NCBI GenBank assembly: GCA_031763025.1 | Contig: JASSKH010000014.1 | Coordinates: forward strand, 12,347,201-12,411,200 | Direction: 5' to 3' | Source: Macrocystis pyrifera | Taxonomy: Eukaryota > Sar > Phaeophyceae > Laminariales > Laminariaceae | Length of the DNA stretch: 64,000 nt | Shown: positions 12,981-63,698 of the stretch, in pieces | Numbering within the stretch: position 1 is the stretch's first letter | Layout of the letters: each line of letters opens with the position of its first letter | Notes under the pieces: generated by a model | Seen by the model: only the letters and a program-made list of their open reading frames with translations | The model's database searches: none | Told to the model about the DNA's origin: nothing | Position numbers and translations under genes: made by a program

Positions 12981-14575
12981 CCACAGGCAGGTACGAGGTA
13001 CAGGTATGAGTACGAGATGTCCACGGCTGACTGCAGCAGCAGCAACAGCTGTAAACCATATCCCACTATTAATATCAATACCAGGTACTCATTATCACCA
13101 CAGCAAGTATATCACTGCTGCAGTGTAGCACGGGTGATACCGGTTGTGTTTCCTCTTCTGCCGTCGTTGTTGCGATTAAAGCAGTTACTGCTGTACTACT
13201 GAAATTACAGTACATACTACGGGCAGTATCATAGATTACGGATGTCCCGGACATAAGTTTATCTGGACGACAGCAGCACTATTGGTACTAACTTTAGTAC
13301 TGCAGTGTATACAAGCAGTATAAACATGCTCGGGCGGGTGCTCAAAGGCCGTGGCAATGCCATAGATAGGGTGGTGTCATGACACTATTGTTATTACTGC
13401 GTTGCCATGAAAAGCCCTTCCATGGTTCGTACGTGTGATCTACCTGGTATACCGTATCCCATGACAGGTAGTGCAATATGGCGTATTGCCATGAAAAAAT
13501 GCTGAATATTGCTGTACTGCGTTTTCTTGCGTGATTGCGTTGAATGTGGGATTGAGCGTGGGTATCTTGTGCGATGATTGATGAGATGGTCAATATTATT
13601 TAAGACTTGCTTGTATGAGTCACAACCCACAACCATGTTGTACGATATTGTGCTAGTTTTTCGAAGATTGTCTCAAAAGCGAATACTCGTTTGAATAGCG
13701 GGTACAAGGTATGAGCAGTCCAGCTAACATAGTAATGGCCCCTTTACGTTTATGTTATACGTCTACGTTTACAGTGCCGCGTGAGAAGTGCCGACAGCCC
13801 GCCCGAGGTTCCTGTGAAATCGATTGGCACACATGGGATTTCACTGTTTTGGCAGTGTTGCGGAGTAGTAGTGCCGGTTGCTTATATAGTGCCGGTATTG
13901 CTAACTGCACCGACATATGCCGGCACTACTCTGTACAGAGGGACCATTCCTGTATTTCTCTCAGCATCGTGTGACATCATTTGGCGAGGAGGGTGGACAG
14001 CGTTGACAGAAGCGGCTGAAACTACTGTCTACAGGCAATCGCCAAATAGACAGCCGGCACTGCTGTATTGGTAGTCCAGGAATGTACTAGACTAATATGG
14101 CAGGTATTGCTACCCGCTCGTTCGTGCCAAGCTCAGCCAGGCCATACAAAACCTGCTCAACGAAGTTTGAGGCAACAACAATATCTGTCTGTTGTTCATG
14201 CGTTATGTACTGCTGTCTTCAGCTGGTATCACAGTTCTGGAAAACAAGCCCGACCTGAGAGCGCCATCTCGCACTTCATTAGTGATATGCATATCACAGC
14301 GTCTAACGGCGTCTTCTGTACTGATCTGTGTACAGAGTGCTTGCTGCTGGTATGTATCTGGCACTACAGCAGTATATATGTACCGTATTGCATATCTGGT
14401 ACATGGTACAGGGTATGAATGTATGCACTTTTCCAGTCCTATTGGAGTATGCATCAACTCCCGGAAGGCAGAAATACACAACAGGGGCTGGCATACAATA
14501 TTCCCCGGTGAAAAAACATCCTACGTGCTTTTTATTAAAAATTCTGGTCTCAATTCCTTCCACGTTGTTGTACAG
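12981..14575. other. No supported gene; region upstream of ankyrin gene 1
   Basis: Contains TACCAGGTA at 13,079 and TACCTGGTA at 13,441. A weak inverted pair, AGTAGTGCCGG near 13,868 and CCGGCACTACT near 13,921, could form a stem. A TTGTTGTACAG sequence ends near 14,575 and could be a 3' splice site for an upstream exon of the ankyrin gene; no upstream exon was identified. Confidence 0.35.
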
Positions 14576-14612
14576 ATTGCTGGTGATTGCCCCGGCTCTC
14601 CCTCGTACCAAC

Positions 14613-16601
14613 ATGGCACACTCCGTGTCGGCTGAAGCCCAAGTTGTTGTCTACCCTCTTCTACCTCTTCAAAAGGTCATCAACCACCGGAAGCTAGTAG
14701 CCACAGCATTTCCACGGTCCGTCGCTGCAGCCGTGGGAGAGGACCCCATATCAGTTGCGATTCAAGACCAACACGAGATGTTTCACTGCGCCGCATCGCA
14801 AGGCATACTGTCCTCTGTCCTGGCGTTGCTAGCGGGTGGGAGACTGTCTCGCGACCTGCCCGACCGTTTCGGCCGCACCCCCCTCCACTGGGCCGCCGAG
14901 CAGGGGCACCTGCACGTGGTGTTCGCGTTGCTTAGAGCGGGCGTGCGCGTTGACCCTCGCAGCCTACGGAATGCCACCCCAATGATGCTGGCAGCGTCTA
15001 AAGGGCACGAGGAAGTTGTTGGGCTGCTGCTCCAGTATCGCGCAAGCGAATCAGACTGCTGGCCCTGGAATCGCCACCTCTGCGGCAGGGAGCACTGGAG
15101 GAGCACCGCCCTCCACTATGCCGCTGACGGTAGACATGTGGGGGTGATAGAAATTCTGCTTGATGTTGGATTCGACGCGGAGCAACGCGATTGGGCGGGC
15201 TTAACTGCGGCCGAAGTAGCCGCAAAAAAATCGGATTTGACATCGTGGGCCGTCTCACATCTAGCCGACTGTGCGAGTGCCAGGGGAAGAAAACTGCTCC
15301 GCAACCGCGTGAGAATGACAATGCAAGACATGGCTAAAGTACACGGCCTGGTCAAAGTCACTACCTTCCCTGGTGCTCGGAATGAGTGCGGAGATACTGG
15401 GGTGCACAGTTTCGTGCGCCCCCCGTATCCCACCGAAATGGCGATCTTGCTGCGCTCAGGCGACCGTATAAGTCTTCGTGACCAGTGTGATGAGTTCCCG
15501 CTACAGATTGCCGTCTGTATCGAATGCGGAGAGATCGTAGCGGACCGTCGTAACGCCGGAGATGACCTGGAGCCGCGGGCGATCGGTGGAGACTCTCCAC
15601 TCCACATTGCCGTTGTGAAGAACAGGGTAACTAGCGTTAGTCTCCTGCTGGGTGCGGGAGTCCCCACGGAGCACCGTGATACCACCCACGGCCAGACTCC
15701 ACTGTCCTGGGCTTGCGAAGGCGGCCTTACCTCTATAGTCCGCCTCCTGGTAGAAGCTGGGGCTGACGTCGAGTCAAGGTCCTCGGCGGGGTTGACCCCT
15801 CTACACTGGGCTTGTCGCTTCATCGACGCCGAGAGCGTGGACATCTTGCTTGACGCTGGGGCAGACCCGGGCGAGGTGGACCGGGCGGCAGCAAAGGATG
15901 CGGCGGAAAACTCGTCGTCTAGGAGCGGCGCGAATGTCTCACTGCCTATCGCCATCGACGTCATCGGTTTGGGCTACCCGCCCGACCGCGCGGAGGATTC
16001 GAGGATTCCCTCCACAGATAGCTCAGTGGCGTTGGCGGCCAGGCGGTCGGATCTATTCACCGTAAAGCGCATTGAGCTGGCGTTGCGTGCCGCTAAGCAG
16101 AAGCGTTCCTGGCGTCGCCGCGGTTGGCTGGTCGTCCTCGCGACCAGGTGGGTTGCGATTGGGTTGCGCGGCGGTGTTACATACGATCGATCGGTAGCTT
16201 GCCGTGGTGGTTGTAGTCTTGCTCTCTCCGCAGCTATACAGCCACGCTCTGTCCTTTCCGGCGTCGAACACCCGCCATGTGCGCGCCAGAAAGCAGCTAC
16301 CATTGATTACCTTGTTAGCACCAGTACGAACAAATGCTGTGGCGACAGCTCTGACTCGCGCAATCCTCACGAAGAACTGAGTAGCGGCAGCGGACCTAAC
16401 TACTATGCGGCGAAAAGGCTGAGACATGTCGGCAACGCATCGATGGGTTCAAGAATGATGCCTGGCCAGCTGGGTCAAACGTGCGATGACATCGGAGGCC
16501 AGGTTGATGTGTCAGTTCGTTTGCCGGAGCTTGTGCATGCTTTGCTCGGGCTAGCAGCGGTCGAGGTAGGCGTATTCCGCAGAGTGGTGTTGTTTGTGTG
16601 A
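14613..16601 (+). CDS. Ankyrin-repeat protein 1
   Basis: An open frame of 662 codons from an ATG in good context (ACCAACATGGCA). Ankyrin repeats with TPLHWAA-type helices are visible at about residues 56-83, 86-118, 121-153, 164-196, 292-322 (degenerate), 325-355, 359-391 and 392-424. Residues about 446-508 form a conserved non-ankyrin module, with IDVIGLG and RSWRRRGWLV, and the last residues (AAVEVGVFRRVV) are also conserved. All these parts recur in the inverted paralogue at 40.7-42.6 kb. Ankyrin repeats generally mediate protein-protein contacts; the partner and cellular site are unknown, and I see no signal peptide or membrane helix. The repeat at about 255-290 has lost its consensus, so some decay is possible. 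The frame is open upstream to 14,328 without homology there, so I chose the ATG; an upstream exon joined near 14,576 is an alternative. Confidence 0.75.
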   Translation: MAHSVSAEAQVVVYPLLPLQKVINHRKLVATAFPRSVAAAVGEDPISVAIQDQHEMFHCAASQGILSSVLALLAGGRLSRDLPDRFGRTPLHWAAEQGHLHVVFALLRAGVRVDPRSLRNATPMMLAASKGHEEVVGLLLQYRASESDCWPWNRHLCGREHWRSTALHYAADGRHVGVIEILLDVGFDAEQRDWAGLTAAEVAAKKSDLTSWAVSHLADCASARGRKLLRNRVRMTMQDMAKVHGLVKVTTFPGARNECGDTGVHSFVRPPYPTEMAILLRSGDRISLRDQCDEFPLQIAVCIECGEIVADRRNAGDDLEPRAIGGDSPLHIAVVKNRVTSVSLLLGAGVPTEHRDTTHGQTPLSWACEGGLTSIVRLLVEAGADVESRSSAGLTPLHWACRFIDAESVDILLDAGADPGEVDRAAAKDAAENSSSRSGANVSLPIAIDVIGLGYPPDRAEDSRIPSTDSSVALAARRSDLFTVKRIELALRAAKQKRSWRRRGWLVVLATRWVAIGLRGGVTYDRSVACRGGCSLALSAAIQPRSVLSGVEHPPCARQKAATIDYLVSTSTNKCCGDSSDSRNPHEELSSGSGPNYYAAKRLRHVGNASMGSRMMPGQLGQTCDDIGGQVDVSVRLPELVHALLGLAAVEVGVFRRVVLFV

Positions 16602-22144: not shown

Positions 22145-23670
22145 CGGATAGATCATCTGTCATAACACTGCATGATACAGATCGCGCACCATGTCCCAAA
22201 ACGGCAGGTACTTGGCAGGTAGGTCTGGGTAGGTTTGATTTGTTCTAAATGAGGATCTACAGTAGTAGCAGTAGCATTGACTTGTATATCGCGATCTGTC
22301 CGATGCGTGACATGCAGGTGAAAACTACTCCGTGTAAACGCGTGAAGCCCAGGCGCCCAGTCGTCGTCCATATAATATTATCATTAATCCTGGTTGACGG
22401 CATTTTCCCAGAATTCGGAAGAAATGTGATTGGTCGATGCTAAAAAACAGTGATATATACAGCAGTATTATGCTGAAAAACTGCACTATCCTGTACCCGG
22501 TAGGGTAACCACGTACTACATATTGTACGTACCCCCCCCCACACACACCCACCACCCAGCCTACGCCCTGAGAACGAGCGAAGTCGCTCGCGTGTCGACT
22601 TGAAACTGAAGAACCTGCGATCAAAGAGGCTCATTGTTCTTCAACCGAGCAGAAGGGGTCTCGGCAGTCTCTCCCCGTCGTGCTGGTTGCCGACATCTAC
22701 CTTCAGTGCCGCCGTCAATCACTCGTCATCATCCATCCACCCGGTGAGGACCTGCCTACCCGACTGCCTGCCTGCCTGCCTGCCTGCCCGCCTCACTCAT
22801 AATGAAGAACGGTTTAACTACAACTGCATGTACTCAATGATACTTCGAACTATTAATAGGCAAAAAAGGAGCCCTGTGAAACATGTCATACATGGATGAC
22901 AGCAAGTAGTTCCAGAACACAAGTAAATTGCATTCGATTTTTCTTTGTACTCTCCTGCTGATCCTGGTGTATCGTTACAGGTTACAGCAGGTGTCCCGGA
23001 GGATTGCTTGTACCGGGTGGCGTGCTTTAGGGTTTTATTGGGGGCGACCAGGAAAAAATGAAACCCTGCTGAGCTGCTCTATATACTATTAATATGTGAA
23101 AACCATGCGTTTTTCCTCTTAAAAAAGTCACTGTTGTTTCACAGTCTTCATGGAATCTACTATTACGGGGGTCCATAGTTAATAGGATCTATGGTGTACA
23201 TAAAACACTATATATGTACCTATTTTTTCTAACAAAATTTGGTCCCGTTAACTATGGACCCCCGTAATATCAATACCGGTACTACTCCTGCTGCGTAGAA
23301 TGTAGAATCCGTTCGTTCTTTTTCGACCAACGGGAAGAAGAGCAGTAGCAATAATTCTGGTAAATAATACCAGGTATTCCATTCGGTTCGTTCCAATATG
23401 TTTCTAAATTCTTTGTTTTTTTAACTTTGAAGTTTACGACTGCAAGAAAATGAACCTATACTAATTTCAAGTATTTAGTCCCCAACATCGCGGGCGGTGC
23501 GGTTCTAACTGGGTCAAGACACACGCTCTAATACTAGAATGACTTCACCTCGACGAGCTTCTTTCATACGTCGTATTAAAATTACCGTTCGTTACACAAG
23601 TGCCACGGGACACTCGTTGAGTGTTGAATAATACAGTAGTTGAAACTGAAAGGCAGCACCACTGTACAGT
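22145..23670 (+). repeat. Segmental duplication, copy b
   Basis: Partner of 11,490-12,980. It has gained a MITE at 23,163-23,267 and a CTGCCTGC tandem tract near 22,762-22,790, and lacks the CACGCAGCTTGC block of copy a. Reading frames are not conserved between copies. Confidence 0.75.
23163..23267 (-). mobile_element. TTACGGGGG-family MITE, copy C
   Basis: A well preserved 105-bp copy. The ends are TTACGGGGGTCCATAG and its complement CTATGGACCCCCGTAA, flanked by TA (23,161-23,162 and 23,268-23,269). It sits inside segmental duplication copy b; copy a has no MITE at the corresponding place (near 12,410-12,425). Confidence 0.9.
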
Positions 23671-23698: not shown

Positions 23699-24036
23699 CC
23701 CCCGATGGCTTGGTGGGTGGTCCGCGAGCCTGTCAATATTAATTGCGTGGGTTCGAGTCTCACCGAGTGCATGCTTGTAGGGACTTTTTCTTGCACAAAA
23801 TTGATTAGCGGAAAGCGCAAGAGCGTTAGTTAGCTGCACATTCGATGAAAATCGACGAGCAGTGAAAATGCTGAACCCTATGCGCGACACAAAAAATTCA
23901 CGTACCGGGGGGGAGAAGGGACGACGCCTGTGACCACGGCTTGTCCAGAAGATCGCTGAGGGTAAAACCTCTCCTACGAGTTAGGCTGGAAAGTAAAAGT
24001 GATGACTTGAGAAAAAACAATAAAACACCCAGTACT
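23699..24036 (+). mobile_element. SINE-like unit S1 with tRNA-like head
   Basis: The head has a good internal Pol III A-box match (TGGCTTGGTGGG from 23,706) and B-box match (GGTTCGAGTC at 23,750-23,759) at tRNA-like spacing. The T-arm at 23,747-23,763 folds with a 7-base loop. The 5' and 3' acceptor sides do not pair, so it is not a functional tRNA. A body with ATGCTGAACCCTATGCGCGA and CTGTGACCACGGCTTGTC follows, then an A-rich end (GAGAAAAAACAATAAAAC) running straight into (TAC)n. Related units lie at 21,228-21,505 and 25,990-26,370 (inverted) and 63,699-63,880. tRNA-like head, body and simple-repeat tail are the layout of a SINE; the call is by structure only. Confidence 0.5.
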
Positions 24037-24214
<178 letters not shown>

Positions 24215-30109: not shown

Positions 30110-30902
30110 CTAGATGTCCGATTTAGACCTACGGTCCACCAGGATAATGTCTTCTTGGAAGAACGGCATAACCTGCAGATTCGGCAGTCGCGAGTAGAAT
30201 ACCTCGTATGGTGACCGCCACCCGATGCTGGCCTTGGTCGCGGACCGGTTGATTCTGCCGGCGGTCCAAAGGACAGCTTCCAGCCACAGGCGGTTGCCAT
30301 CGACCCCGACATGGGGAATCCGGGCGAGGTGGACGCTCGGAAATAGCCGTAGAATCTCGCGGCGAGCCGCATGGACACCCTTCATGGCCCGACAGATCGC
30401 GCTCTCGACAACGGCGTTCTGCTGCGGCTTGCCCGGGGCCGTGCACTCACGTCGATTCCCTGCAGCATCGCAGAGATCGATGAAGCTGCGGTCGATGAAC
30501 TCCCCACCGTTGTCCGTACGAAAGCAGAGTGGTCGCCCCATGGCGTTGGTGTCGGCGAGAAACTTCTGGACGAACGCGGTGGTCTCCGACTTTGTCCTCA
30601 TCCCGTACGACCGCATCCACCGCGCAGCGCTGTCGACGAACATGATCGGACAATGAGACCCGCTCATGGACGCCTCGTATGGGCCGGCCAGGTCGATGTG
30701 CACCGTCTTCATACGCCTCCTTGCGCGCGATGTCGTCCTCCGCGGCACCTTCGCTCGCACGCCCTTCGCTTCCAAACATCCACTACACGTTTGCAGCACT
30801 CCCGTCAGGGTGATACCGTGCTGCCCAGCCGTTTCCCTCAACAGACGTTCGTTCAGGTGGCCGGAGGAGAGGTGAAAGTGGTTAATATCAATAAATTTGT
30901 CA
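30110..30902 (-). pseudogene. Copia integrase with gag-pre-integrase zinc finger
   Basis: The minus-strand frame has HLSSGHLNERLL and CSGCLEAKG, matching the H-x-x-x-x-H ... C-x-x-C zinc finger before integrase. The catalytic core follows, with acidic residues in HIDLAGP, FRTDNGGEF and the glutamate of PQQNAVVES. Thirty-five residues separate the second Asp from the Glu, as in D,D35E integrases. The ending (GWRSPYEVFYSRLPN) corresponds to the usual P-Y-E-x-x-x-x-x-x-P block. This core of 243 codons is unbroken, but the rest of the element is not. It would insert retroelement cDNA in an active element. Confidence 0.9.
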
Positions 30903-31080
30903 CGTTTCCCAACAGTGAATAGACGCCTACCCGGAGCAAGTATACGTGTCCCTGCGGTATCTGCCTCAATCCTTCGGCAGCGACAGCGCGATCACCCAGG
31001 CGGACAAGATGACTTGAGCCGCGGCCGGAGATCAGATTGGAAAACGAAGGTCGCGGCGAAGGCATCCGTTTCAGAGTAGT

Positions 31081-34713: not shown

Positions 34714-34905
34714 GCGAGTACCCGAACATACGATGAGGATCGCAAAATACAAATAAAGGCGAAAAGTAGAAAGTAATCAACTAATTGCTGTCGTAAAATA
34801 CCTACGATAGTATGCAATTTTGGGTCATTCTGTTTGCGAGTACCGAAACATACGACGGGGACCGCAAAATACAAATAAAGGTGAAAAGTAGAAAGTAATC
34901 AACTA
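34714..34905 (+). repeat. 70-bp unit in tandem, period 122 bp
   Basis: 34,714-34,783 and 34,836-34,905 are nearly identical (GCGAGTACC, ACATACGA, AATACAAATAAAGG, GAAAGTAATCAACTA). A third, more diverged copy lies at 35,895-35,962. The first copy is an empty site and the second is filled by the MITE at 34,906. Confidence 0.85.
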
Positions 34906-35010
34906 TTACGGGGGTTCATAGTAAATAGGACTAAACATTGTTGGTAAGAATAGGTAAATATATAGGTTTTTGTGTGTACCGTAGGTCCTATTACGTGTGT
35001 TCCCCCGTGA
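34906..35010 (+). mobile_element. TTACGGGGG-family MITE, copy D
   Basis: 105 bp from TTACGGGGGTTCATAG to CCCCCGTGA, flanked by TA at 34,904-34,905 and 35,011-35,012. The sibling unit just upstream has CAACTAATTGCTG at the matching point with a single TA (34,782-34,783). Here CAACTA precedes and TAACTGCTG follows the element. This shows a TA duplication on insertion. Confidence 0.93.
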
Positions 35011-35012
35011 TA

Positions 35013-36230
35013 ACTGCTGTTGTTGTAAAAGACCTACGTTAGTTCGTATGCAATTTTTTTGTAGTATGCAATTTTTAATAGTACTCTTTTACAGGTGTGT
35101 GTGCTTGCTGTGTTTTTCATACATCAAGAGCGGAAGAGGCCAAGAACATGTACGATAGTGAGATTCACCAAAAACACGCACTTGTACGTCAAGACCTGCT
35201 GCAACATTTACAGGGAGTATTACGTCGTAAAGATTTCCGGTGTCTTGGTGTGTATGTCACGTGCGAACTGCTGTAAACCAACTTTCGACTGTCTTGTGTA
35301 CCCTGGCCCTCACGTGTCGATCTGCTGTTTCAGTGCGCGAAATAGTACTGGCCGAAATCAATTGGAAATCGAACCAGCTGTAAGTATTATCGTCTCGTCG
35401 ACCCTGGTGGCATCCAGGGGAGTCTCTGGCCAGTAGTCACTCGCGAGGGAAATGATGGAAAACGCGCGCGGTTCACGCAGCTTGCAAAGTTGAGTATCGA
35501 CCGATCTGCCGATCGGTTGAACTCACAGCTGACGTGCTTTCTTGGTTTCTTATAAAATAGTACTCGTAGATAGTTTTGTTGTCGCACAAGAAGTAATCCA
35601 CTCCTCCTGTTGTTGTAATGTATAATACCTGCTTGTGCTATAGTATGCAAAGTTGTTGTTGGCCAAATGAGAAATAAGGTGGGTGCATGCTCTAGGGGGC
35701 AAAAAACATGACTAAGTACTGTGGAAATGTCGTATCGTATAGGGGGTACATATAGGGTAGCCCTATAATGATACCAGGCTCTACTGCTATAGTATGCAAA
35801 TGACGACGCTTTGTTGGCCGCTGAAAAACATTTTGTGGGTTGTTACACATTCGACAGATTGACCTGTATTTTCAACTGGCGGGTATTATTATTTGCGAGT
35901 ATCGAAACATACGATGAGGATCGCGAACAAATGAAGGCGAAACGTAGAAAGTAATCCACTGCTGCCGGCGGCGTCCTACGGTATTCCCCCAAACCTGAAA
36001 AAAAAAAACCCTTTTTTTGCCATTCGCTCCTGTGAAAGAACTGCGATAGTATGCAACGTTTTTGCCATTCGAGAGAGATACAGCACTACAGCAGTAGTAC
36101 TCGTAGATAACTTTGCTGTGGCACAAAAAGTGACCCAGTCCTGTTGTACTGTAAAATACCTGCTATAGTATGCGAATGGAAACGCGAAGTACACCAAAAA
36201 AGTATTATTTCAGCTGGTTCGACGATACAC
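35013..36230. other. No supported gene; repeat fragments
   Basis: 35,462-35,560 is a copy of the CACGCAGCTTGCAAAGTTGA block also found at 12,585-12,680, with a CCGATCTGCCGATCGG hairpin at its centre. 35,665-35,710 and 35,965-36,035 are fragments of the GCATGCTCTAGGGGGCAA / CGGCGTCCTACGGTA repeat found intact downstream. Confidence 0.5.
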
Positions 36231-40711: not shown

Positions 40712-42561
40712 TCATATAAACACCACCACTCTGCGAAACACGCCCACCTCGACCGCCGCGAGTTCTAGTAAGGCACCGACAAGCCCCGGCGAAGGTGCAG
40801 CCGCATTCGCTTGGGCTCCACGGTCGCCACACGTTTGACCTCGCCGACCGGAAGATGCTCCTGCGGTCATCACAACTTTGTCGACACTCCGCGACCTTTT
40901 GCTAAACCTAATCGTACAGTCACTCCACCCTGCTTGCACAGTACGAGAGCCAGGGCTGCCGCTGCTCGCGTTGAATTCGCAACGGTCAGTGTCACCTTCC
41001 TTCTGGCGAACTTGTGGTGGACGCTCGAAGAGAGTATCTGTATCCGTCCCTCGCGATTGCTTTGACGCCGGAACCCTAGGACCGCAGTCACTACCGTCGA
41101 CCGCCCAACACTTACCTCCACGCCCGACTTTCTCTAACGAATCTCGCCTGTTCTGAAGGATGACTAGCCAACCGCGGCGGCGCCATGACCTCTCTTGCTG
41201 TGAGCCCCTCAGCGCCAACTCAATGCGTCCAACTGACGTTAGATCCAACCGTCTGGCTCTCAACATATCTGAGAGGTGCGCCGAATCCTCCATGCGGTCG
41301 AGTGGGCGGCCTAGACCAATCACGTCGATCGCGACAGGCCTTGACACAATCGTACCGCTCCTAGACGACGACGCGGCTACCGCATCTGCAGCCGCCTGGT
41401 CCAGCGCGCCAGGGTCTGCGCCAGCGTTGAGCAAGGCGTCCACGCTTTCAGTGGCGTTGAAGCGGCAAGCCCAGTGTAGAGGTGTCAACCCGGCCGAGCA
41501 CCTTGACTCGACGTCAGCCCCAACTTCCACCAAGGCGCCAACTATAGGAGCGAAGCCGCATTTGCAAGCCAAAGACAGTGGAGTCTGGCCGTGGATATCG
41601 TCACGGTGTTCCATGTCGGCTCCGGCCTCGAGGAGGTCACCTACGATCTCCCCGCATCCGTTGAGGGCGGCGACATGTAGCGGAGAGATACCACGGTGGT
41701 CGCAAATATTCGGATCTGCGCCCGCCTGTAGCAAGACCCTCGAGATGGTGGCGTGATGGAAATGCGCAGCCCGATGCAACGGTGTGAATCCGGTGCCATC
41801 CTGCCAATCAAGAAATGCGCCGCCTTTTGTCAGACCGGATACCATTGCCACGTCTTGCATCGCCATGTTTACGTAGTCATAGACCAGTTTGCCTCCCATA
41901 TCACTCGTAGGCAGCAGTAGATGCGTGATCGCCGGTGATGTGTAGTGCGATTGCCTGGCGGACACTTCCGCCGGAATTAACCCTGCTCCATCGTGCTGCC
42001 CCCTGTCGAATCCAGCATCTAGCAGAGCTTCTACGACTCTCACGTGGCCACCAGCAGCGGCGCAGTGGAGGGCGGTGCTCCTCCAGTGCTCAACTCCGCA
42101 GCTAATATAGCAGCTTGAACGCCAGCAGTCTAATTCTCCAGCGCGGTAGTGAATCAGCACGCGAACAACTTCTGCATGTCCTCGGGACGCTGCCAGCATG
42201 ATTGGGGTGGTTTTGCACTCGCTGCGAGGGTCGACGCACGCCCCTGCCCCAAGAAGCGCAAGGACCACGCTACGGTGCCCTTGCTCGGCGGCCCAATGGA
42301 GCGGAGTGCGGCCGAATCGGTCGCGCAGGTCGCAGGAAAATCGTTCCTCTGCTAGCATTTCCACGACAGATGATAACATGCCTTGTGATGCGACGGAGTG
42401 AAACATCTCTTCCTGGTCCTCAATTACAACTACTGCTGGTGCATCTCTCATCGCTGCAGCGGCAGACCTGGGGAATATTGTAGCAACCAGGTTCCGATGG
42501 TTCGCGAGTGTTCCGAGGGGGTGGTCAGCAGCTTTGAGCTCCGCCTTGGTAGGAGAGAGAT
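40712..42561 (-). CDS. Ankyrin-repeat protein 2
   Basis: A minus-strand frame of about 616 codons, paralogous along its length to the protein at 14,613-16,601. Counting residues from the first codon of the open frame (42,628), ankyrin repeats are visible at about 72-100, 103-135, 138-169, 182-214, 278-310, 311-343, 345-378 and 379-411. The conserved module with IDVIGLG and RSWRRRGWLV spans about 432-492, and the end reads AAVEVGVFRRVV. Repeats in the middle are better kept than in gene 1. There is no ATG before residue 60, after conserved sequence has begun. A polypyrimidine stretch and CAG at 42,565-42,562 look like a 3' splice site, so I start the exon there; the first exon was not found. 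Role: protein binding by ankyrin repeats, partner unknown. Confidence 0.72.
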
Positions 42562-42691
42562 CTGGTAAAAACAAACCCGTCGCCAGATCTGGACAGCAGT
42601 GAAGAAAAAAACAAACAAACAGTTGCACGAGGTTTTGGAAGCGTTTTACTATTTCGGCATTTTGTCTGTACCGGCCCCAGTTTCAATGCCT

Positions 42692-46392: not shown

Positions 46393-47235
46393 TAGTTACT
46401 ATTAATACCACAGGTACAACTTGCTTGTAGTATTTTATGCCTGGCATGTCATTGTTGGGTGGACTGCTGTAGCATCAAAGCCTTGCAACACCCGAAGAGT
46501 ATTCTCGGGGCTCGGAAGGTTTCCTCGTAGTCCAATGGTCGTTATAGCCGATAGGAGAAAAATAGACAAGTGCCCAAGGACACTTCCTCGGATAAGTGCT
46601 TGTACCACTTCAGCGAGCTAATAATATTATAGTAGGAAGAGAGCAGAGTGGGCCTGATACTTTGAATCAATTCCCTGTCGGATTACTCTCTACCAGGGTT
46701 ATAATTAGGTGTTGCGCTGGCGCAACACTTTGGTTAATATATATATATAGCCGTTTTCTCCGCAACAGCCGCGGAGGGCTTGGTTGCGCGTAGCCTAACA
46801 CACGCGATTTTCGGCGCGCAACGTTTTTGGCCACAGCCCAAAAAAATGTTGCGGCCTTTTTTGTTCACCGTAGGCGATTTTTTTTTAAATACTGTTTTTG
46901 AAATTCGCCTTTGGATCTTTTTTCTATTCGCCTGTACTGAAACCAAATAAAAAAATAGGTTCGTATCCCAACACACCCTTTTTTTGAGGTTCGGGAGGCG
47001 TTTAAACGCACTTTGTTACCTGGTTTTCGGGCATCTATTCGCGCAAATATCGCAATGCTTTTTATGCCGGACCACTACTTATATATATATATATCCCTAT
47101 ATCCCTGCTCTCTACAGCTCCCTTTTCTCTCTAATCATGAAGAAGACGAGTGATACGACATCATAAATATCAGTCTCCTGAACAAGAGAAAAGCTGCCTT
47201 CCAAGCCAGTTCATATAATTTACATGTATATATTA
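46393..47235. repeat. Partial copy of repeat R (R3) and flanks
   Basis: About 46,700-47,060 matches internal parts of R1 and R2. GTTGCGCTGGCGCAAC at 46,712 corresponds to their palindromic cores, and the GAGGTTCGGGAGGCGTTTAA block near 46,985 plus TATTCGCGCAAAT near 47,036 correspond to 20,660-20,730 and 25,395-25,460. (TA)n runs lie at 46,738-46,750 and 47,080-47,092. Confidence 0.55.
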
Positions 47236-47340
47236 TTACGGGGGTCCATAGTTAACGGGACCAAATTTTGTTGGTAAAAAGAGGTAAATATATAGTTTTT
47301 TATGTATACCATAGGTCCTATTAACTATGGATCCCCGTAA
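47236..47340 (+). mobile_element. TTACGGGGG-family MITE, copy F
   Basis: 105 bp, TTACGGGGGTCCATAG to ATCCCCGTAA, flanked by TA (47,234-47,235 and 47,341-47,342). The arms are nearly perfect, so this is probably one of the youngest copies. Confidence 0.92.
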
Positions 47341-47696
47341 TAGGACTTTACAAAATATTGTACGTACACCAAGTCGCTGCAACATATGGTTCACATATGA
47401 ACGGGTAGCATAGCAGAAGGCCAGGAAAATGTACAGATATTGCGCCCGAAGTTCGCTTCCTGGTGAGATAGCCGTTTTGCATTTTTTCACGAACATTTTT
47501 CTTCATCTGTTATTTTCAGCGTTGTCACAATAGTACTCGGAGTAAGTTTTATGATCTCACCAGTTAGTTGGAGATCTAACCTTCCAACATCACAGCCACA
47601 TATCAAATTGCAGTCCGCGATATAACTGATAAAAATGCTTATATTACAAAGCAATGAAAAAATCTTGGTTTTTCGGTCCGTACGAGCTTAGGCTGA

Positions 47697-48345
47697 ATCT
47701 TATGGGAGCCGAAATCGGGAAACAGAACAGGATTTCCCCTTTAAATATATTGTGTACGGTGTTGAAACCCGTACAGTCGATACGATATGCTTTTTGGTAT
47801 GCCGCAGCAGGGAAAAACTCTGCTTTCAACGCACAACACCTACCACCACCGACGATGATTCCTTGCCTCACAGGCGGGTACGGGATGACGTCAAACTTTG
47901 AAGGCTGTATGCTCAACTGCTCTAAGCGTGCTCGCTACCACGCTGGAGGTTCGTTGCTGCTGTGTGGCCGGAGTTCTCGTTCGAGACGTGAGAGCCTGAC
48001 CCACTTCTGGACAACTTTTTTTCTGACGGAATTGGGAGTCGTCCAGAAATGGGTCAGGCTGTCACGTCTCGAACGAGAATCCCGGTCACACAGCATCAAC
48101 GACCCTCAAACTTGGTAGCGAGCACTCTCAGAGCAGTGGAGCGTACGGCCTCGAAGGTTTGATGCCATCTCGTTCCCAATGAAGCGAGGAATCGGCGGCG
48201 GCAGGTGCTGTGCGTTGAAAGCACAGGTTTTATATTTGGGCAGTGACCGGAAATGGCTCAATGACATGTCTACCGACGGCACTACCCTGGGGTTTCTACA
48301 CGATGAAGGGAAATCCTGTTTGGTTTTCCGGTTTCGGTTCCCATA
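47697..48345. mobile_element. Foldback element with arms of about 300 bp
   Basis: 47,697-48,023 and 48,050-48,345 are inverted copies around a spacer of only about 26 bp. Shared blocks from inside out include CTGACCCA-TTCTGGAC, GTTCTCGTTCGAGACGTGA, TGCTCTAAGCGTGCTCGCTA-type sequence, CTTTCAACGCACA and AACAGGATTTCCC. Pairing is strongest near the centre and weaker outward. Both arms hold a short open frame of related sequence because of the duplication. Transcription would give a long hairpin RNA. Confidence 0.85.
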
Positions 48346-48849
48346 AAAGTCCGCCTCCAGCAAAGTCCCCATAAAATCCTTTGCTGGATATTTTTTCGAA
48401 ACCCCAAGATTCCCGGTGGAGGATCACCAGGAAACATCCCCGGTTTAATCAATATATACTTTCAATCTGTGTTTGGTTCATCTGCACGGTGTTAAGAAAA
48501 ACAACGATACATCAGTAGTACCTGTCATGACACACCACCTGTATCGCCTCGTTTCTGCTCCATTTAAAATATGCTTCATTATGTTTTCGTGTCTCCTGAT
48601 CAGCCTTATCTTACACTCCGGCCCGGACTGCTGTGTACATACACTTCAAGCTCAGCAAAAATAAATCCCACAGGGGAGATTTTTTTGCAGGAAACTACAA
48701 TTTGGACGCCGATCCGACGTTTTCGGCACTTTGGTGCATAAACTCGCGCCAGCGCTGCGCACCAAGAGTCATAAACAACCCGCACAATGAGGGAACCAAA
48801 GGCCGGCGTGTGTGGCGGCGTGGCAGCAGTGTTGCACAGTTTTGTTTGG
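48346..48849. other. No supported gene
   Basis: Nothing recognised between the foldback and the palindrome array; short frames only. Confidence 0.4.
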
Positions 48850-49839
48850 CAATCTCACGGGACGTCCCATGGGATATCCCTTGCGATAATATTCACAGCT
48901 CAGGGGATCCCATGGCTTATCCCATCAGGTACCAGGTACACGCTTTCCCATTGACGGTCCCCATGCACCAATGGGACTTCGCATGGGATTTCCCGTTGGA
49001 TAATCTATGGTATTGTTATTACCATCATGCATCGCGTTTGTCATCCGACAGTGTGTAGAATGAGCTTTCCGCGTTGATCGCCTATTATCATTGCCCGACA
49101 GAAGAAATCCAAGGGAGCTCAACTAGAAAAAAAAAACGATCTATGAGCAAAACCCAACCCCCTTCTGTACTTTTTAGTCACTACGTATATATTAATATTA
49201 TTATTATTTTTAATATTCCGGTGGATTGGTAAAATTAATACTTACAGTACTTAAGATCACCAGGCTTCTACGCTTGAAGTGCCTGCCGTGTGTCAATTTA
49301 ACCCGCCCCTCCCGTTGCAACAGCAGAGCCGGCTGCTGCTGCTACCACTGGCGCGTGATCATGTTTCTGTACGTCCTCCCAGCTTAGCCTATATCTACGT
49401 CAATTTCAAATGCTGCCTTTGCCCCTTCTTTCTCATTACTACATATTATACCCCCTCTAGCTTGCTCTCTGAAATCCCAAGCCGCGTCCAGGCTCCATCC
49501 CCTGGCATAGTGTTTGTGTTATCCCATGGGGATCCTATTTTTCCTTCCATTTCAATCAACGGCATCATGGGATACCCCACGGGGTTTCCCGTTGGGTTTT
49601 TCACGGATTCCCATGGTACAGCGCACACGCTATCAAGTGGGATCACTACAGTACGTTCCATAGGACTCTCCGTGGATGCACAGAAGTCTGCATGGGGAGC
49701 CCAACTGAGAAGTTCCATGAGATTCCATAGGAAGTCCTCCAGGTCCCATGGGACAACTTGTGTGATGGTCATGGCGATGATACACGCACCATGCAAAATA
49801 TTGTTGGGCCTGTCACCGTGGGAAGTCTTGTGGACCTCC

Positions 49840-50340
49840 TGTGAAGCGATGACCGCTCTAGGGTAGTGGTAAGGGTAGTGGTAAGGGACGCAGGTTGTTC
49901 TGGCAGCTGGAAAGCAGTGCTTCGCTTCTTCTGATTTAGATCTTCTTATTGATGGCGAGAGCTGAGGAGGTGCTCTGGCAGAGAAGTGAGAGGTAGGGGG
50001 GCGGGACTCGACGCCCAGATATACTCGTCCCACCCCACGCCACAAGCTCTCCTAAATTCCTCTTGTCTGATGTACGCCTACAGAACTTTCCTGTGGCTAC
50101 CGATCGTTCTTCTGCTAATATAAGAATATCTCACTTCGTGATCCTATCTGCGTTAAGGAACATTACTCTCATCTAAGGGGTTTTCCGCCCTAGGGAACAT
50201 TCCTAAGAGAACGTTACTCTCAACTAACGGAATATCCGCCGGGTTAATCCATTCTTTGGATTACTCTCGTATTCGTGAGACTAGAAGACTGCAACGTATT
50301 ATCTATATCTATAGTCCATGAGTGCTCTACTCATATCACA
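49840..50340 (-). mobile_element. Solo LTR, copy 2
   Basis: 501 bp on the minus strand, TGTGATATGAGTAGAG to GCTTCACA. CTCC lies on both sides (49,836-49,839 and 50,341-50,344), a 4-bp target duplication. It matches copy 1 (9,867-10,564) apart from the latter's extra 209 bp and a 12-bp CTTACCACTACC duplication here. No retroelement genes adjoin it. It is inserted in the CCCATGGG array, which continues on both sides. Confidence 0.82.
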
Positions 50341-51097
50341 CTCCCCTGTGCCTTCCCGTAAGGAGGGGACTGTTTTATGGTCCCACAGGACACTCGGAGC
50401 ATCTCACTAGGAGCACGATGCTCCCCACGGGACGCCCCATGAGCTCCAATGAGAAGCATCCCATGGGCAGTCCCATGGAAGAAAACAAGCCCCAATTCCC
50501 ATAGGAGATGACAAGTCCCACGGGACAACTCATGGGAAGCTCAATGCACCTCATGGCATGCCTTGTGACGCCCCATGGGAAGTCCTAGGTACCCCGATTT
50601 ATCCCACGGGAAGTCCCACGGGATCCCAAGGGACCTCTCAACGGTGACTCCAGTGTACGTCCCATAGAACAGCTTACGGGACTTATTATTGCTATTTTGA
50701 TGACAATGGGACAATGCTTCAGCGTTCATCACTCATGAGCACCCCGAAAGACGAAAACCACGGAAATAAACGAGTTCTACGTATATATTTTAAATAGTGT
50801 TTTCCTTTAGTCTCTGGGAAGTTTCACGAATTCCGATGGGAAGTACTACTGAAGATACAGTGCATCCCGTTCATCTTTACATGGAACTTTCGACGTCCCA
50901 TGCGACCTCATGTGAACTCCTAATAGAGTACAGTGCATCCTGTGGGCAGTCCTATGAGATCCCATGGGAAGTACAATGCATGCGACGGGAAATTCCATGC
51001 GAAGCATGATGCATCTCATGAGGAGTACAATGCTTGCCGTAAGAAGCTCCGTGGCAGGCACGATGCACAGAACGGGACTTTTCATTGGATTTCGATT

Positions 51098-51359
51098 CTA
51101 TAGTGTTTGCGCCGCGGGAGCGGTGGAAGCTATATGCCCCGACATAGGAAAGAACAGCGGACGCCCCCACCACACGCACAATGGCACCGCCGTTTCAGCA
51201 CTGGGAGAGTTGACACCAAACTCCTCCAACGCCGTGTAGGCTGGCACGTCGCCCTCAAACGTAATCTGGCTTGATTTTTCAGACACGTTTGGAGATGTTT
51301 TAGGGTTTAGATATAAGGAGTAGGGTTCAACCACATAGTTGACCGGGACCCCACCATCC
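51098..51359 (-). CDS. Possible terminal exon, unassigned protein
   Basis: On the minus strand, TTGTATTCTGTGCAG precedes GGATGGTGGGG, a plausible 3' splice site (exon from 51,359). The frame then runs 87 codons to a TAG, with a mixed composition that looks coding (NYVVEPYSLYLNPKTSPN; later GDVPAYTALEEFGVNS and LCVWWGRPLFF). I recognise no family. It is an island in the CCCATGGG array. The upstream 95 bp are repeated inverted at 51,440-51,545, where a plus-strand frame shows related residues (RLHNC, TLCRAG). No other exon was found. Confidence 0.3.
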
Positions 51360-51545
51360 CTGCACAGAATACAAGCGAAAACACAATTATGGAGACATTG
51401 AGCAGTGCAGCACATCGGTAGGCGTACCTAGTTGAGAAGTTGCCGACACGTTGTGTTGTTTGGTACATTTGTCAACGTCTCCATAACTGTTGTTTCACGT
51501 CTACGTTGTGTAGGGCGGGGAGGGGATCCCGGCCACCTGTGTATT
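51330..51545. repeat. Inverted repeat around a divergent coding-like pair
   Basis: 51,330-51,425 and 51,440-51,545 are inverted copies at about 70 percent by eye (GTCTCCATAA-TGT, TGTGTAGGGCGGGGAGGGGAT against TGTGCAGGGATGGTGGGG). They point two related frames away from each other, minus to 51,098 and plus to 51,706. Confidence 0.5.
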
Positions 51546-53524
51546 GGAGAGCGAAGATAATCCAAAGGGAAGAACAAGGGTTAGCTAACGAAAAATCCAA
51601 ACACCACCTAGTATCAGCACATATTCGCTTATGTAGCCTACGAAGGCTGCGTTTGACTTGTCACCAAGACCTCGCCGTCGCTCCTAACGCAGCCTACTCA
51701 GGCTGAAACGGCATCATCAGTGTGCTTGCTGTGGTGGGTTTTGCTGTTGTTATGCAAGTTGTGGTGGTGCAAACATTTCCCACAGCATCCGCGGCGCGAA
51801 CAATTCGAAATCAAAATCCCATGAAAAGCCCCATCGTGGCTGATTATTATGGGCTTGCCATGGAACTTCCTACGGCAACAATTGTGCTTTTCATGAGATG
51901 CATTGTGCTTTGCATGGGGTTTCCCATAAATGAATTATGCTTTCCCTGGACTTCGATGGGACTGCCCATGTGATGCACTATATATCCCCCCGCGAGGTCG
52001 CATAAAGTCCCATGGGGAGTCGAAATTCATAAGTGAGAAAGATCCATGGGATGAGCTGTATTTCCCGTGGAACTTCGCATTGGAAGTAATGAAACTTCCC
52101 AGAGAAAGTACACGATTCCATGCGCTATTTTATGGGATGTTCAGTGGAAAGACTGTTGATATTTGCCTTGGAGGCGTTCTACGATAGAGGTATCACATTT
52201 GGGGGAAACAACTTTCTTAGCCACTACCACGGCGTCCTTGCCGGGCGCGAGTTGAAGGAGCTACAGCAATGCCCCAGATCGTGCAGATGTATGTATCGAA
52301 GTATTGAATGTGCACGCTCCACACATCCCAGGCATCAGTCGTACTCATATGTTTGTCGGAGTTGATTTCCTCTTTTTTCTTTCGGGAGACATAGGAGCCT
52401 CTTCAAGTTTAGCGTGCACCCCTATCGTAGAACGCCTCCTTGAAACCCCGGACTTCCCACGCGGTGGGATGCATCGTGGTATTACCTAGTGGGACTTCGC
52501 ATGGGACTCCACAGGGGATGCACCGTGCTTCTCACGGGATGCATAGAGCTTCTCATGGGACGTCCACCGGACGTGATGTCTCTCATGGGACGTGTGCATG
52601 GCACTTGTGATCTTAAACCTAAATTCTCATGGGATGCATCGTGGTACCCATAGGACTTCCCTTGGGAGCTCGTGAGAAGTCTCATGAGATGCATTGTGCT
52701 CCACATGAAATGCATCCAGCGTCCCATGGAACTATCAACAGCGTTCTTCTCACGGGAAGGTACAGGAGAGACCCGCGGGACTTCCCACGGGGGGTGACAG
52801 CCTCCATGTGACTTCCCATAGGAAGTGTATGATCTAATCGGCCATCCCATGAGAGGTCCCGGCATAAGATCCTGGCAGACATCTCATGGGATTCCATGGA
52901 ATTTTCATTGGGGTTCCTCAAAAACCTGCTGTGCACCCTCCGGGAGTCTCATGAGGCGCCCTATGGCAATCATACGTGATAGCATGTGCCATGTGCCCTG
53001 GGAACCCGTGGGCAGTCCCATGGGAAATGTCGTGGGATATCCCATAGAGCGCTTTATATACTTGGAAAGTAGGGCGGGATGCCAGTATTCTATAATAAGA
53101 GCTCCATAGAGTATTTGATGGGAAGTCCTATGGGAAGTCCCATCGGCCAACGGGGAATTCCCGTGGGAACACGCATATCTTAGTGGATTTCGATTCGATC
53201 CCATGGGATGGGTCTTATCTCGTGGGATGTCCCATGGGACGTCCGGTGGGAAAACCAGATACTGCTGTGGAACACTGCCACAAACAGACTTGATTCCCTC
53301 AATACTCAATAGCCTACGTTGGTGAGATGTTGGTAACTTGGCCTGTAGCGTCGGTGCAGGTTCATAGATCGAAATATCCCTATTACTAATAGTTCGGATC
53401 GTTGTCTTACAATAACATGAGGCAATCGTAGCTTCCTCAACGATTCCACTTCGGAATTATTCTTCCTGCTTGACGTAAACAAACCTGGTTTATACGAATA
53501 TATAAATATACCACACCTCGGATA

Positions 53525-54360
53525 ACGTAACACTTAAAGTTTAAAATTGATGTTAGGCGTCAGCGAAAAAAACACGTAACATTACGTTACTATGTTAACT
53601 ATTTTCTGGATTTTGTGATACCATAGTGTTGGTGTGTTATGATATTGACGGGCGATCGCGTAACATTATGTTAGAGTGTTACCCTGATCCCGTACTGACC
53701 GCAGTACATGTGTTGCGGTGTTAAGGTATGCAGCCCATGACGAGTAACACATCGTTAGCGTGCTAGCGGAATTCCTGGTGGCTATCGTTACACACGTTGA
53801 AAGGATAACGTACATGGTCAATTGAACGTTAACATCATGTTACCGTGTTAGCGGCATCAGCTCGTAGCGAGTAAAGTTATGTTATATCGTGTGTCAGCGG
53901 GCTTCTTCGTGCTACCGTAACACCCTTTCGACGGAGAACGTACACGGCCAAATAAACGCGTACATAACACTATGTTAGTGTGTTAGTGAAATTCGTAGGG
54001 GCTATCGTCACACGTGGGAGAGATGGCGTATATGGTCAATACAACGTTAACATTATGATACCGTATCAGCCGCAGCAGCAGTCCGTTTCGAGCGACGTTG
54101 TGTGAGGGTAATACGAAAGTCTTGCTACCATAACAGCAAAACATGCGTCAAACGGATAATGCATGTGATCGATAAAACATTATTAATAGCATTGTTAATG
54201 TTGGTAACTCGTATGCAATGCATGTAGTGACACAAGTTAGTAGATAACGTACGCCCCCAATCTAAAGTCAACAATATGTTATTGCCGTGTTAACTCGTAC
54301 GTGCGAGTGCGAAGATTACGTTATAGATAGATAACGTAATGTGATATAGATGGGTAAAGT
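53525..54360. repeat. TAACATTATGTTA word array, left
   Basis: Words such as GTAACATTATGTTAG, TTAACATCATGTTACCG and CATAACACTATGTTAG recur roughly every 60-90 bp (53,577, 53,662, 53,745, 53,827, 53,872, 53,965, 54,045, 54,180, 54,268). Each is often followed by GTGTTAGCGG. No coding frame. The right-hand counterpart lies at 60,480-61,270. Confidence 0.8.
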
Positions 54361-55343: not shown

Positions 55344-55751
55344 TTATTGTCTTTTTTCGCGACATGCCATGGCATGCCGTGGCACGACCTGCGGCAAAAC
55401 CTTCCACGGCATCTTCCACGGCATACCACGGAACCTTCCACGGACCCCCACGGCATACCATGGGACCCTAACCCTAACCCTAACCCTAACCCTAACCCTA
55501 ACCTAGGTGCCGTGGACATTGGGGTGCTGTGGGGGTTGCCATGACATGCCGTGGGGTTACCATGGAGTGCCATGGTGGTAGCCGCGGGGGTTGCCATGGT
55601 ACTACCCATGGCATGTCATGGCAACCCCCACGGCGTGCCATGGAATCTTATGCCACACCATGGGATGCCGTGGTGCTGCCATGGTATGCCATGGGCGGTA
55701 CCATGGCAATGCCACGGCATGTCCACGACAAGGTCAAATAGTGTAGAACCC
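55344..55751 (-). repeat. Palindrome-rich element with telomere-like core (T2)
   Basis: Inverted copy of T1 (1,891-2,310): same ends, same CCATGG / CCGTGG / GGCATGCC words, and a telomere-like core in the same relative place. Orientation is opposite, so the two copies face each other across 53 kb. Similarity is high apart from word variants and core length. Confidence 0.8.
55466..55502 (+). repeat. Interstitial CCCTAA repeats
   Basis: Six perfect CCCTAA units inside T2. In T1 the corresponding TTAGGG tract has variant units, so this copy is the purer one. Confidence 0.92.
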
Positions 55752-55847
55752 TGGTCGTCCGTCTCGCTTGTTGAACCCATCCCCAGATGACTCCTGTACT
55801 GACCGCCCAATGCTTCAGGAGGCAACGGAGGCAACGGGGATCAGTAC

Positions 55848-61800: not shown

Positions 61801-63027
61801 ACCACATTTCATACTAAATACCTGGCACCTAACACGATCACCAACTATTCAGTAAGCTGCATCCAACCTACGATGGTATAGACACCGAACAAACAAGCCA
61901 TATTGTATTTTCTACGTGTATTGTTGTTGTTTTCTTCACATTAAACCGTTCTGTCTACCCGTCGACATCTAATGTGTGTCAAATCAAAATCTTCCTCCTC
62001 TTTTACGCCATCTACAGTTAGTATATTCCACAGCAGTAGTAAGTCAAGTATGCACCGCTGTGATTTATGGTGTGCTTTGTACGACTTAACGATGGTATCA
62101 CTATGACGACAACAACGACAAACCAAACGAACTGCAGAATCTGAATAGGTGTTCATGATGTACCAGGACAATAGCGAGCCACCAAAACGCTGCTTGCTGT
62201 GACATCACACAAAACTCTTCACGTTTCTGAGTCAATTATTTTCCGTGGGATTGTGCTGTATCGGCCAACATCACGAATTAAGTCGTCGTTATTCGCGCGG
62301 AGCATGTATCGGAGGTCGGGCGGTGTCGATTGCGCGGTAGGCTGAGGCTGAGCCAAGATTGTATCGAGGTGCGGCAATATCATATAATCTATCAGTACGT
62401 ATATATGTTGCGGTCTGCCGGTGAAGGTCCGCGAATGAATACGTACAGATTCTCCTTTTTGGCAAGAAATTGTTCGTTCGCCTATACTTTTCGTAGAGTG
62501 TGGAAGAATCTATGAAGCACCACGTTCAATGCTCGTTGTGGGACTTGGCGTCCGGACCACTACAGGCAGACATAATGTGGAATAGAAGGCCGGTACGTCG
62601 ACCTCTACTGCTTTACGTTACCATGTAAGAGACTTACAGTATACTCTACTGTAGGTAGCAAGCCAAACTACGGCATTGACTTGGCAAAGGGGTTTTGGGG
62701 TGTTTTAAGGCTCACCGCAAGGCACAATTCGACGCGAGTGGACGAGGAAAGAAAATACCGAAGTTTCCCGTGATAATGGTGAAAGAGGGAGGGAGTAGCC
62801 TACTTTGCGACCCCGGATCTGAGCTACGACTACTGAAGGACGGAGCAGGAGCAACAAAGGGCGAACACACGAAATGAGACGGAGAAAAACAAAAATATAC
62901 GTAGCAAAAGGGCGACATCGGGGGCTTGACCGATGAAAACATATGATGGGTAAGTAAGGTGGTGTGGTTGATATGTCAGTATCGCGGTCGAATACGTGCT
63001 GTATGTACGCAGGACCACGAGCACCTA
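61801..63027. other. No supported gene
   Basis: Short frames only; 62,695-62,877 (60 codons) has an even composition but no recognisable motif. Confidence 0.35.
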
Positions 63028-63132
63028 TTACAGAGGCCCATAGTAAATAGGACCAAATATTGTCAGTAAAAACAGGTAAATATATAGTTTTTTGTGTGCA
63101 CCATAGGTCCTATTTACTACGGTCCCCCGCAG
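63028..63132 (+). mobile_element. TTACGGGGG-family MITE, copy G
   Basis: 105 bp, opening TTACAGAGGCCCATAG and closing CCCCCGCAG, flanked by TA (63,026-63,027 and 63,133-63,134). The interior matches copies D and F closely. Confidence 0.85.
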
Positions 63133-63698
63133 TAGAATATCGGGTGAAAAATACGTGAGGAGTTTCGCCGTCAAATAACCGTGAAGGGAAATTACAGGGA
63201 AGAATAACCAGCAGGTATAAGTGCTCGTAGCTCACCTAATATAGCGAGTGGCAGTACCTGTGGAGGAAACGGACTTCGGTTATATAGGTCGGGCATGCCT
63301 CGGTGCTCTGTGCGAGCGTGCCACAAGTTCGGAAGTCCGGTACACAACAGTCTCTGAGGTGCGACGCATTTTTTTGCTCTGATGCACCCCTCTGCCCGCC
63401 TGGGAGATCGAATGAATGCTATCTTTTTGATCAGCACTACATCAGCGGTATCAACTGTGTCTTTGGGCACGGTTACCACGAAAACACAAGGCCGCCTTTC
63501 ATCGTCTTCCCCCGCGTCATCTCTGGTCGTTCCCCACCGGCCAACATCCCTACGGCAACGCTCCTTCTCTACTTTCCCTCAGCCCCTGCAAGTAGATGGT
63601 AGTGTTGCTACCCATATCTCGTTGACAGATGGAAAATGGAGTACCGTTATAATACAGGAAGAACAACATGTACTACTCGCATAATAATGCTTTTATGG
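63133..63698. other. No supported gene; unassigned frames
   Basis: Two overlapping plus-strand frames of about 100 codons (63,303-63,602 and 63,382-63,684) are unrecognised. Confidence 0.3.

Follow-up and report, generated by a model that had tools for sequence, protein, structure and literature searches.

Positions 48788-53301 of the Macrocystis pyrifera sequence analysed here (64,000 nt of contig JASSKH010000014.1, hereafter the window) are occupied by two long inverted arms, filled with a short palindromic word, around an almost word-free centre (Table 1). The word was followed as the octamer CCCATGGG and as the self-complementary decamer TCCCATGGGA. Ten exact copies of the octamer are present in the window, all within 48866-53238, compared with 1.13 per 64 kb (maximum 5) in dinucleotide shuffles. 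The initial annotation, which had reported ten exact octamers in an array at 48850-53260, was correct in this, and the octamer, rather than being equally common outside arrays, is absent from the rest of the window. Allowing one mismatch to TCCCATGGGA, the window has 33 sites, of which the 48-53 kb bins contain 31. When all perfect 8-bp palindromes are counted regardless of sequence, these bins do not stand out (5-9 per kb), and the 46 and 47 kb bins, with 12 each, exceed them; the enrichment concerns the CCCATGGG/TCCCATGGGA word and not palindromes in general. Words were identified by their resemblance to the consensus, which favours the words when they are compared with linkers.

The initial annotation had described a 4.4-kb array of irregularly spaced words. 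Instead, five word stretches are parted by unrelated DNA and by the word-free centre, and the spacing is quantised. The steps between successive words (up to 3 mismatches) were 12 bp in 30 cases, 21 bp in 13 and 10 bp in 9; block autocorrelation had its top lag at 12 (z 10.0), followed by 21 and 22 (z 4.8 each), and Tandem Repeats Finder (TRF) with relaxed scoring reported periods of 12, 21 and 22 bp in the array.

Two unit types were found in both arms when these are read inward, namely TCCCATGGGA plus 2 bp (12 bp) and TCCCATGGGA plus the 11-bp spacer AGCACAATGCA (21 bp). With up to 2 mismatches, AGCACAATGCA occurs inward 8 times in the left arm and 7 times in the right arm and outward in neither (mononucleotide shuffles: mean 0.46, maximum 3). 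With up to 3 mismatches, the counts are 10 and 14 inward and 2 and 0 outward (shuffles: mean 4.2, maximum 10). The 2-bp linkers between words 12 bp apart (n=30) are AG (10), CG (5), TA (5), CT (4), TT (3), CA (2) and AA (1), with G never the first base and C never the second. The AAGT linker of the initial annotation, which corresponds to the junction GGGA-AG-TCCC, is thus the commonest of them, and its remark that spacer bases are not conserved applies to the 2-bp linker, whereas the 11-bp spacer has a consensus. Repeat units with a consensus, which it had taken as the mark of an ordinary minisatellite, do emerge in part. Its conclusion that this is not a normal satellite nevertheless stands for a different reason, the array being two inverted arms of one structure. 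A satellite or minisatellite would consist of a single consensus unit, including its spacer, repeated head to tail; the locus is different, since it has units of two types, 2-bp linkers that vary, inverted arms and a centre free of the array.

The arms, about 1.6 kb each, are inverted and collinear, with a symmetry centre near 51437. Complementary pairs were detected by a repeat search at both extremes of the array and across its middle. In a BLAST comparison of the left with the right half, opposite-strand blocks were found in order (best E=5.6e-36), and the same-strand matches were short (best E=0.007). A global alignment of the arms gave 1424 columns with 73.6% identity and a score of 812, against 165 for the direct-orientation control and a mean of 198 (standard deviation 30, maximum 303) in 500 permutations of 40-bp blocks, in which most words are kept; such permutation breaks the order and also the local context at block edges. 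Three interruptions (49022-49521, 49844-50344 and 52170-52439) were omitted from this alignment, their edges having been chosen from the repeat search and BLAST. The terminal 12-mer at 48788 differs from its complement at 53290 by one mismatch, and mirror symmetry reaches the terminal TGAGGGAAYCAA, the word-free centre and the subterminal 14-mers. The outer limits in Table 1 mark as far as homology was seen. Two features expected of a fold-back element are present: long inverted arms make up most of it, and the arms consist internally of short tandem repeats (12- and 21-bp units, the 21-bp units pointing inward in both arms).

Table 1. Coordinates of the fold-back structure, its parts and interruptions, and the 420-bp elements of the window
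Feature	Position	Strand	Remarks
E1 and E2, ~420-bp element, two inverted copies	1889-2309; 55346-55753		24 differences in 408 aligned columns
Whole fold-back structure, inserts included	48788-53301	.	ends TGAGGGAACCAA... and ...TTGATTCCCTCA, paired in the arm alignment
Element ends as patterns			GAGGGAAYCAA... and GCAGTGTT[GC]CACAG
Left subterminal inverted repeat (GCAGTGTTGCACAG...)	48826-48889	+	64 nt, 77% complementary to 53215-53278
Left arm, word stretch 1	48853-49014	+	48826-49021 pairs with 53278-53093, 66%
Stretch without right-arm partner: insert, or loss from right arm	49022-49521	.	gap in collinear pairing
Left arm, word stretch 2	49522-49843	+	49567-49743 pairs with 53045-52871, 69%
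Inserted dispersed-repeat copy (long-terminal-repeat-like by guess)	49844-50344	-	CCTGTG on both flanks, at 49838 and 50345
Left arm, word stretch 3	50345-51100	+	50341-50467 pairs with 52770-52647; 50811-51199 with 52105-51702, E=5.6e-36
Best 21-bp unit example, TCCCATGGGA+AGTACAATGCA	50960-50980	+	1 mismatch to consensus
Centre, almost word-free, partly mirror-symmetric	51101-51799	.	51333-51401 pairs with 51542-51472, 72%; ORFs without a Pfam domain above cutoff
Right arm, inner word stretch	51800-52168	-	repeat search, BLAST, global alignment
Inserted 270-bp element resembling a miniature inverted-repeat transposable element (MITE)	52170-52439	.	22-bp terminal inverted repeats GGAGGCGTTCTACGATAGAGGT, one mismatch
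Right arm, outer word stretch	52442-53251	-	repeat search, BLAST, global alignment
Right subterminal inverted repeat (GCAGTGTTCCACAG... inward)	53215-53278	-	partner of 48826-48889

The arms were interrupted by later insertions. Most of the second interruption (49872-50332) is 94% complementary to 10084-10544, that is, to another copy of the same repeat in the window; inside that copy, a 209-bp unit is repeated in tandem at 9875-10292 (99-100%). In 49022-49521 no convincing terminal repeat was found, the best internal inverted match having 12 columns and the edges sharing 6-7-mers. An open reading frame (ORF) on another contig, P0130, aligns with the element as far as 52079, resumes at 52490, and forms a single match once 52170-52439 is left out, which suggests that it derives from an arm lacking this insert.

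P0130 was one of 24 proteins obtained with a 148-aa synthetic query, the translated unit, at E<=10; seven of them had E<=0.005 and none was listed with a Pfam domain. The 24 ORFs were tested against the element (interruptions omitted) and against 100 block-permuted versions of it. Seven (P0124, P0127, P0130, P0133, P0137, P0138 and P0140) matched the element better than all 100 permutations, and P0138 follows the array and then the centre (about 50954-51244). The scores of P0122, P0123, P0125, P0128, P0135, P0136 and P0141 were reached by 1-3 permutations, those of P0121 and P0126 by 5 and 7, and those of eight others by at least 12. P0121 has the lowest E-value, yet its collinearity with the element is unsupported by permutation. 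P0141 resembles an unrelated bacterial protein, so a weak match in this list means little. A search with P0130 at E<=0.01 returned only P0130 itself and P0145, and no second copy of the fold-back element was found within the window. The pattern CCCATGGGANNTCCCATGGG matched no locus in the viral contigs collection and 11 loci in the genome contigs collection, all bacterial or archaeal by title; these were rejected as arrays, each having one site and 2-9 words (up to 2 mismatches) in the stretch examined. CATGGGAAGCACNATGCATCCCATGG had no match in the viral contigs collection. A viral contig matching P0130 (L012) was rejected as a chance match, with 5 words (up to 2 mismatches) in 10.3 kb and ORFs that are phage-like by eye.

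The comparison of the arms also bears on the history of the words. Left-arm words (up to 3 mismatches) were aligned start-to-start with right-arm words in 33 of 50 cases. In the columns where the arms agree, word positions equal the consensus in 227 of 245, and in the aligned 2-bp linkers (n=12) the arms share the base nine times at each position, three different bases being represented there. Columns in which the arms agree probably represent the older state, so by the time the arms diverged the words were probably uniform and the linkers varied. Since then the words have decayed about as fast as other columns: arm identity is 143/185 (77%) where both arms have a word, 480/662 (73%) outside words, 90/123 and 83/111 where just one arm has a word, and 73% over the 293 columns of the centre. 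Present purifying selection on the words was therefore rejected.

The words are also arranged along the helix. Among word pairs up to 64 bp apart (94 pairs of 63 words with up to 2 mismatches), the strongest period in the range of 8-25 bp was 10.5-11 bp, and the helical phase R at 10.5 bp was 0.43, a value above those of all 500 random placements (mean 0.12, highest 0.35). Units of 12 and 21 bp bring the words to roughly the same side of the helix, the arrangement that a protein lattice would predict. Binding of a dimeric protein, one of the functions suggested at first, appears the best functional guess for words that are self-complementary, helically phased and uniform while their 2-bp linkers vary. 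The protein might be a host factor, and the array a regulatory or chromatin platform selected for binding it; the self-complementary word and the helical phasing would fit, as would the under-representation of CCATGG in the rest of the window (7 vs 13.7 expected), a deficit tempered by CCACGG (23 vs 12.8) and CCGTGG (21 vs 13.5), both above expectation. However, no constraint was seen after the arms diverged and interruptions of the arms were tolerated, and we consider a host platform very improbable.

It had also been proposed that the array forms serial small hairpins or grows by a hairpin-dependent mechanism. On folding, seven array pieces had z-scores of -3.42 to +0.78 relative to their own shuffles, six of them below -1.5, and five other pieces (one from the centre) had -0.74 to +1.29. 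The array thus folds modestly better than its shuffles, but many stems join neighbouring words, and the large hairpin is the pair of arms. Pairing between neighbours occurs because the words are self-complementary, and is not evidence for function. Amplification of words as serial mini-hairpins would agree with this folding and with linkers that vary while words do not, as though faithful copying were limited to paired bases. Against it, a lone 10-bp palindrome would by our reasoning leave almost no stem, and the non-palindromic 11-bp spacer was copied together with the word in a fixed orientation, like an ordinary tandem duplication; we consider such growth a very improbable origin of the array.

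We consider that 48788-53301 is probably an old, decayed, non-autonomous fold-back-type DNA transposon of the brown-alga nuclear genome. It has inverted collinear arms, oriented units in helical phase, later insertions and collinear relatives on other contigs; its past movement as a transposon is what we infer from them. Several observations weigh against this interpretation: i) some units also match between the arms outside the collinear order (e.g. 50993-51033 with 52731-52691, E=4e-6), which a repeat would be expected to show; ii) 17 of the 24 translated relatives fail to exceed all permutations; iii) the contigs of the relatives could hold dispersed copies or orthologues of one locus; iv) the contrast between words and linkers is partly built in by consensus-based word calling; v) tandem 12- and 21-bp units by themselves yield some helical phasing; vi) the words, as noted above, show no sign of being maintained at present; vii) no Pfam domain above cutoff was found in the 14 ATG-started ORFs of at least 60 aa that overlap the element (best match below cutoff PF24793, E 0.006); and viii) no secure target-site duplication was found, ten offsets having given only AAT (offset 1) and AC (offset -2). 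Nor do these ORFs include a P-type transposase with a THAP domain, which a non-autonomous copy need not hold. A coding function of the array was rejected, since its frames are translations of the unit and its ORFs lack domains, and scans for Rfam RNAs and for tRNAs gave no matches.

Some of these points would equally suit an ordinary, degenerate 12/21-bp minisatellite that became a segmental palindrome through inverted duplication and is neither a mobile element nor functional. The periods reported by TRF, the about equal rates at which word and non-word columns diverged between the arms, and the insecure target duplication are all compatible with such an origin. However, arm homology stops at a matched terminal sequence, the symmetry takes in the array-free centre and the subterminal 14-mers, P0138 on another contig is collinear with the array plus the centre, and linkers are more variable than words where the arms agree. 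With these taken into account, an inverted minisatellite seems to us unlikely but not negligible.

For the fold-back transposon, the following mechanism is proposed. The arms would be long inverted repeats filled with 12- and 21-bp units on the self-complementary TCCCATGGGA, and the words would have served as reiterated binding sites for a transposase acting in trans through a dimeric DNA-binding domain. With the words lying on approximately one side of the helix, a short site would become specific by number. The copy at 48788-53301 has since decayed and is probably inert. By analogy with the arm sites of Galileo (see below), TCCCATGGGA is probably a site of this kind, a putative target of a dimeric transposase domain.

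A second type of element in the window, E1 and E2, also carries words of this kind. They are made up of CCATGG/CCGTGG words, spaced mostly by 10-12 and 20-22 bp, with (TTAGGG)n in the interior. E1 is flanked by the 8-bp direct repeat GGTCAGGT (at 1879 and 2310) and E2 by the 11-bp direct repeat GGTCGTCCGTC (at 55322 and 55753), the repeat being separated by two bases from the shared left end in E1 and by about 13 from the shared end in E2. The flanking direct repeats mark E1 and E2 as mobile elements carrying telomere-type repeats. They differ from each other at 5 of 138 word columns and 19 of 270 other columns, too few for claiming constraint, and inverted symmetry, evaluated in E1, is slight (52, against a maximum of 51 in 300 permutations). 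CCATGG-type words at 10-12 and 20-22 bp steps are common to E1/E2 and the fold-back element, whereas E1/E2 differ from it in the bases flanking the core (TGCCRTGG), the internal (TTAGGG)n and the flanking direct repeats, and the ends are unrelated by eye. It is conceivable, although we would not expect it, that two or more unrelated mobile elements, among them the fold-back element and the 420-bp element bearing telomere repeats, make use of a brown-alga protein reading CCATGG-cored palindromes, each gathering many sites in helical register, with words uniform and linkers free, into a multivalent "word lattice" that serves as the transposon's recognition end.

Other features of the window are worth recording. 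Just outside the fold-back element, 47876-48177 is an inverted repeat whose 141-nt arms are 84% complementary and 20 nt apart, and the adjoining 53500-54360 is a degenerate, GTTA/TAAC-rich stretch (TAACATTATGTTA etc.), perhaps with a repeat of ~170 bp (by eye). A 110-bp MITE-like element is present in five copies (12-121, 23161-23270, 34904-35013, 47234-47343 and 63026-63135; 62-83% to the reference copy) with GGGGTCCATAG-type ends (by eye). Two long ankyrin-repeat ORFs, at 14325-16598 (+) and 40713-42679 (-), are inverted relatives (74-79% at the DNA level in matched pieces); among the best 120 of 3183 matches of the latter, the closest relative has 80%, Laminaria digitata 69% and 52%, and Ectocarpus species ~40%, which points to a brown alga close to the kelps. 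A fragment of an integrase core (PF00665, E 4.8e-7, 30.4 bits, just under the cutoff of 32.6) at 30113-30991 (-) is probably a retrotransposon remnant, and 24033-24214 is a nearly pure (TAC)60 microsatellite.

In the FB element of Drosophila the units are about 10, 20 and 31 bp. Fold-back elements with internally repetitive arms are described for several transposon groups (PMC4079207, PMC3169594, PMC3573991). Tm1, a Foldback-type element of the nematode Mutator/Foldback family, likewise has long inverted repeats composed mostly of short tandem units, which are 13-15 bp, most often 14, and can differ in number between the ends of one element (PMC3169594). In contrast, the unit core in Macrocystis is palindromic over all 10 bp and is combined with spacers of two lengths (2 and 11 bp), and neither the 9-bp target duplications of Tm1 nor the Phantom-like transposase encoded by some of its members was found here (PMC3169594). 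Tetris of Drosophila virilis is, like the present element, an apparently non-autonomous fold-back element with tandem-repeat terminal inverted repeats and no transposase found, but its units are ~220 bp instead of 12/21 bp and also form longer satellite-like arrays, an outgrowth not seen in the window (PMC4079207).

Galileo, of the P superfamily, also has long arms with repeated sites and is the model for the function proposed here (PMC3688188). Binding of its THAP domain to secondary sites in the long terminal inverted repeats has been shown by footprint and gel shift, and its authors suggest that many short sites confer specificity (PMC3688188). Galileo-G is reported to have three sites per end, compared with 63 words (up to 2 mismatches) here, and the P-type transposase of Galileo is known (PMC3688188); the tandem units of the F group in D. 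mojavensis are ~210 bp, against 12/21 bp here (PMC3573991). Among the literature matches listed, no description of such word arrays in brown algae was found, and those joining "foldback" and "Ectocarpus" were microRNA work only.

The arms of the proposed fold-back element, now decayed, form lattices of a palindromic decamer, a variant architecture in a known kind of element. A puzzling array of palindromes thereby becomes an interpretable mobile-element architecture in brown algae, and its inward 12/21-bp unit can be used by repeat annotators for finding and masking. If the words are transposase sites, the element would carry to an extreme the secondary-site principle, which was tested on the three sites of Galileo and would here involve all 63 words in helical phase.

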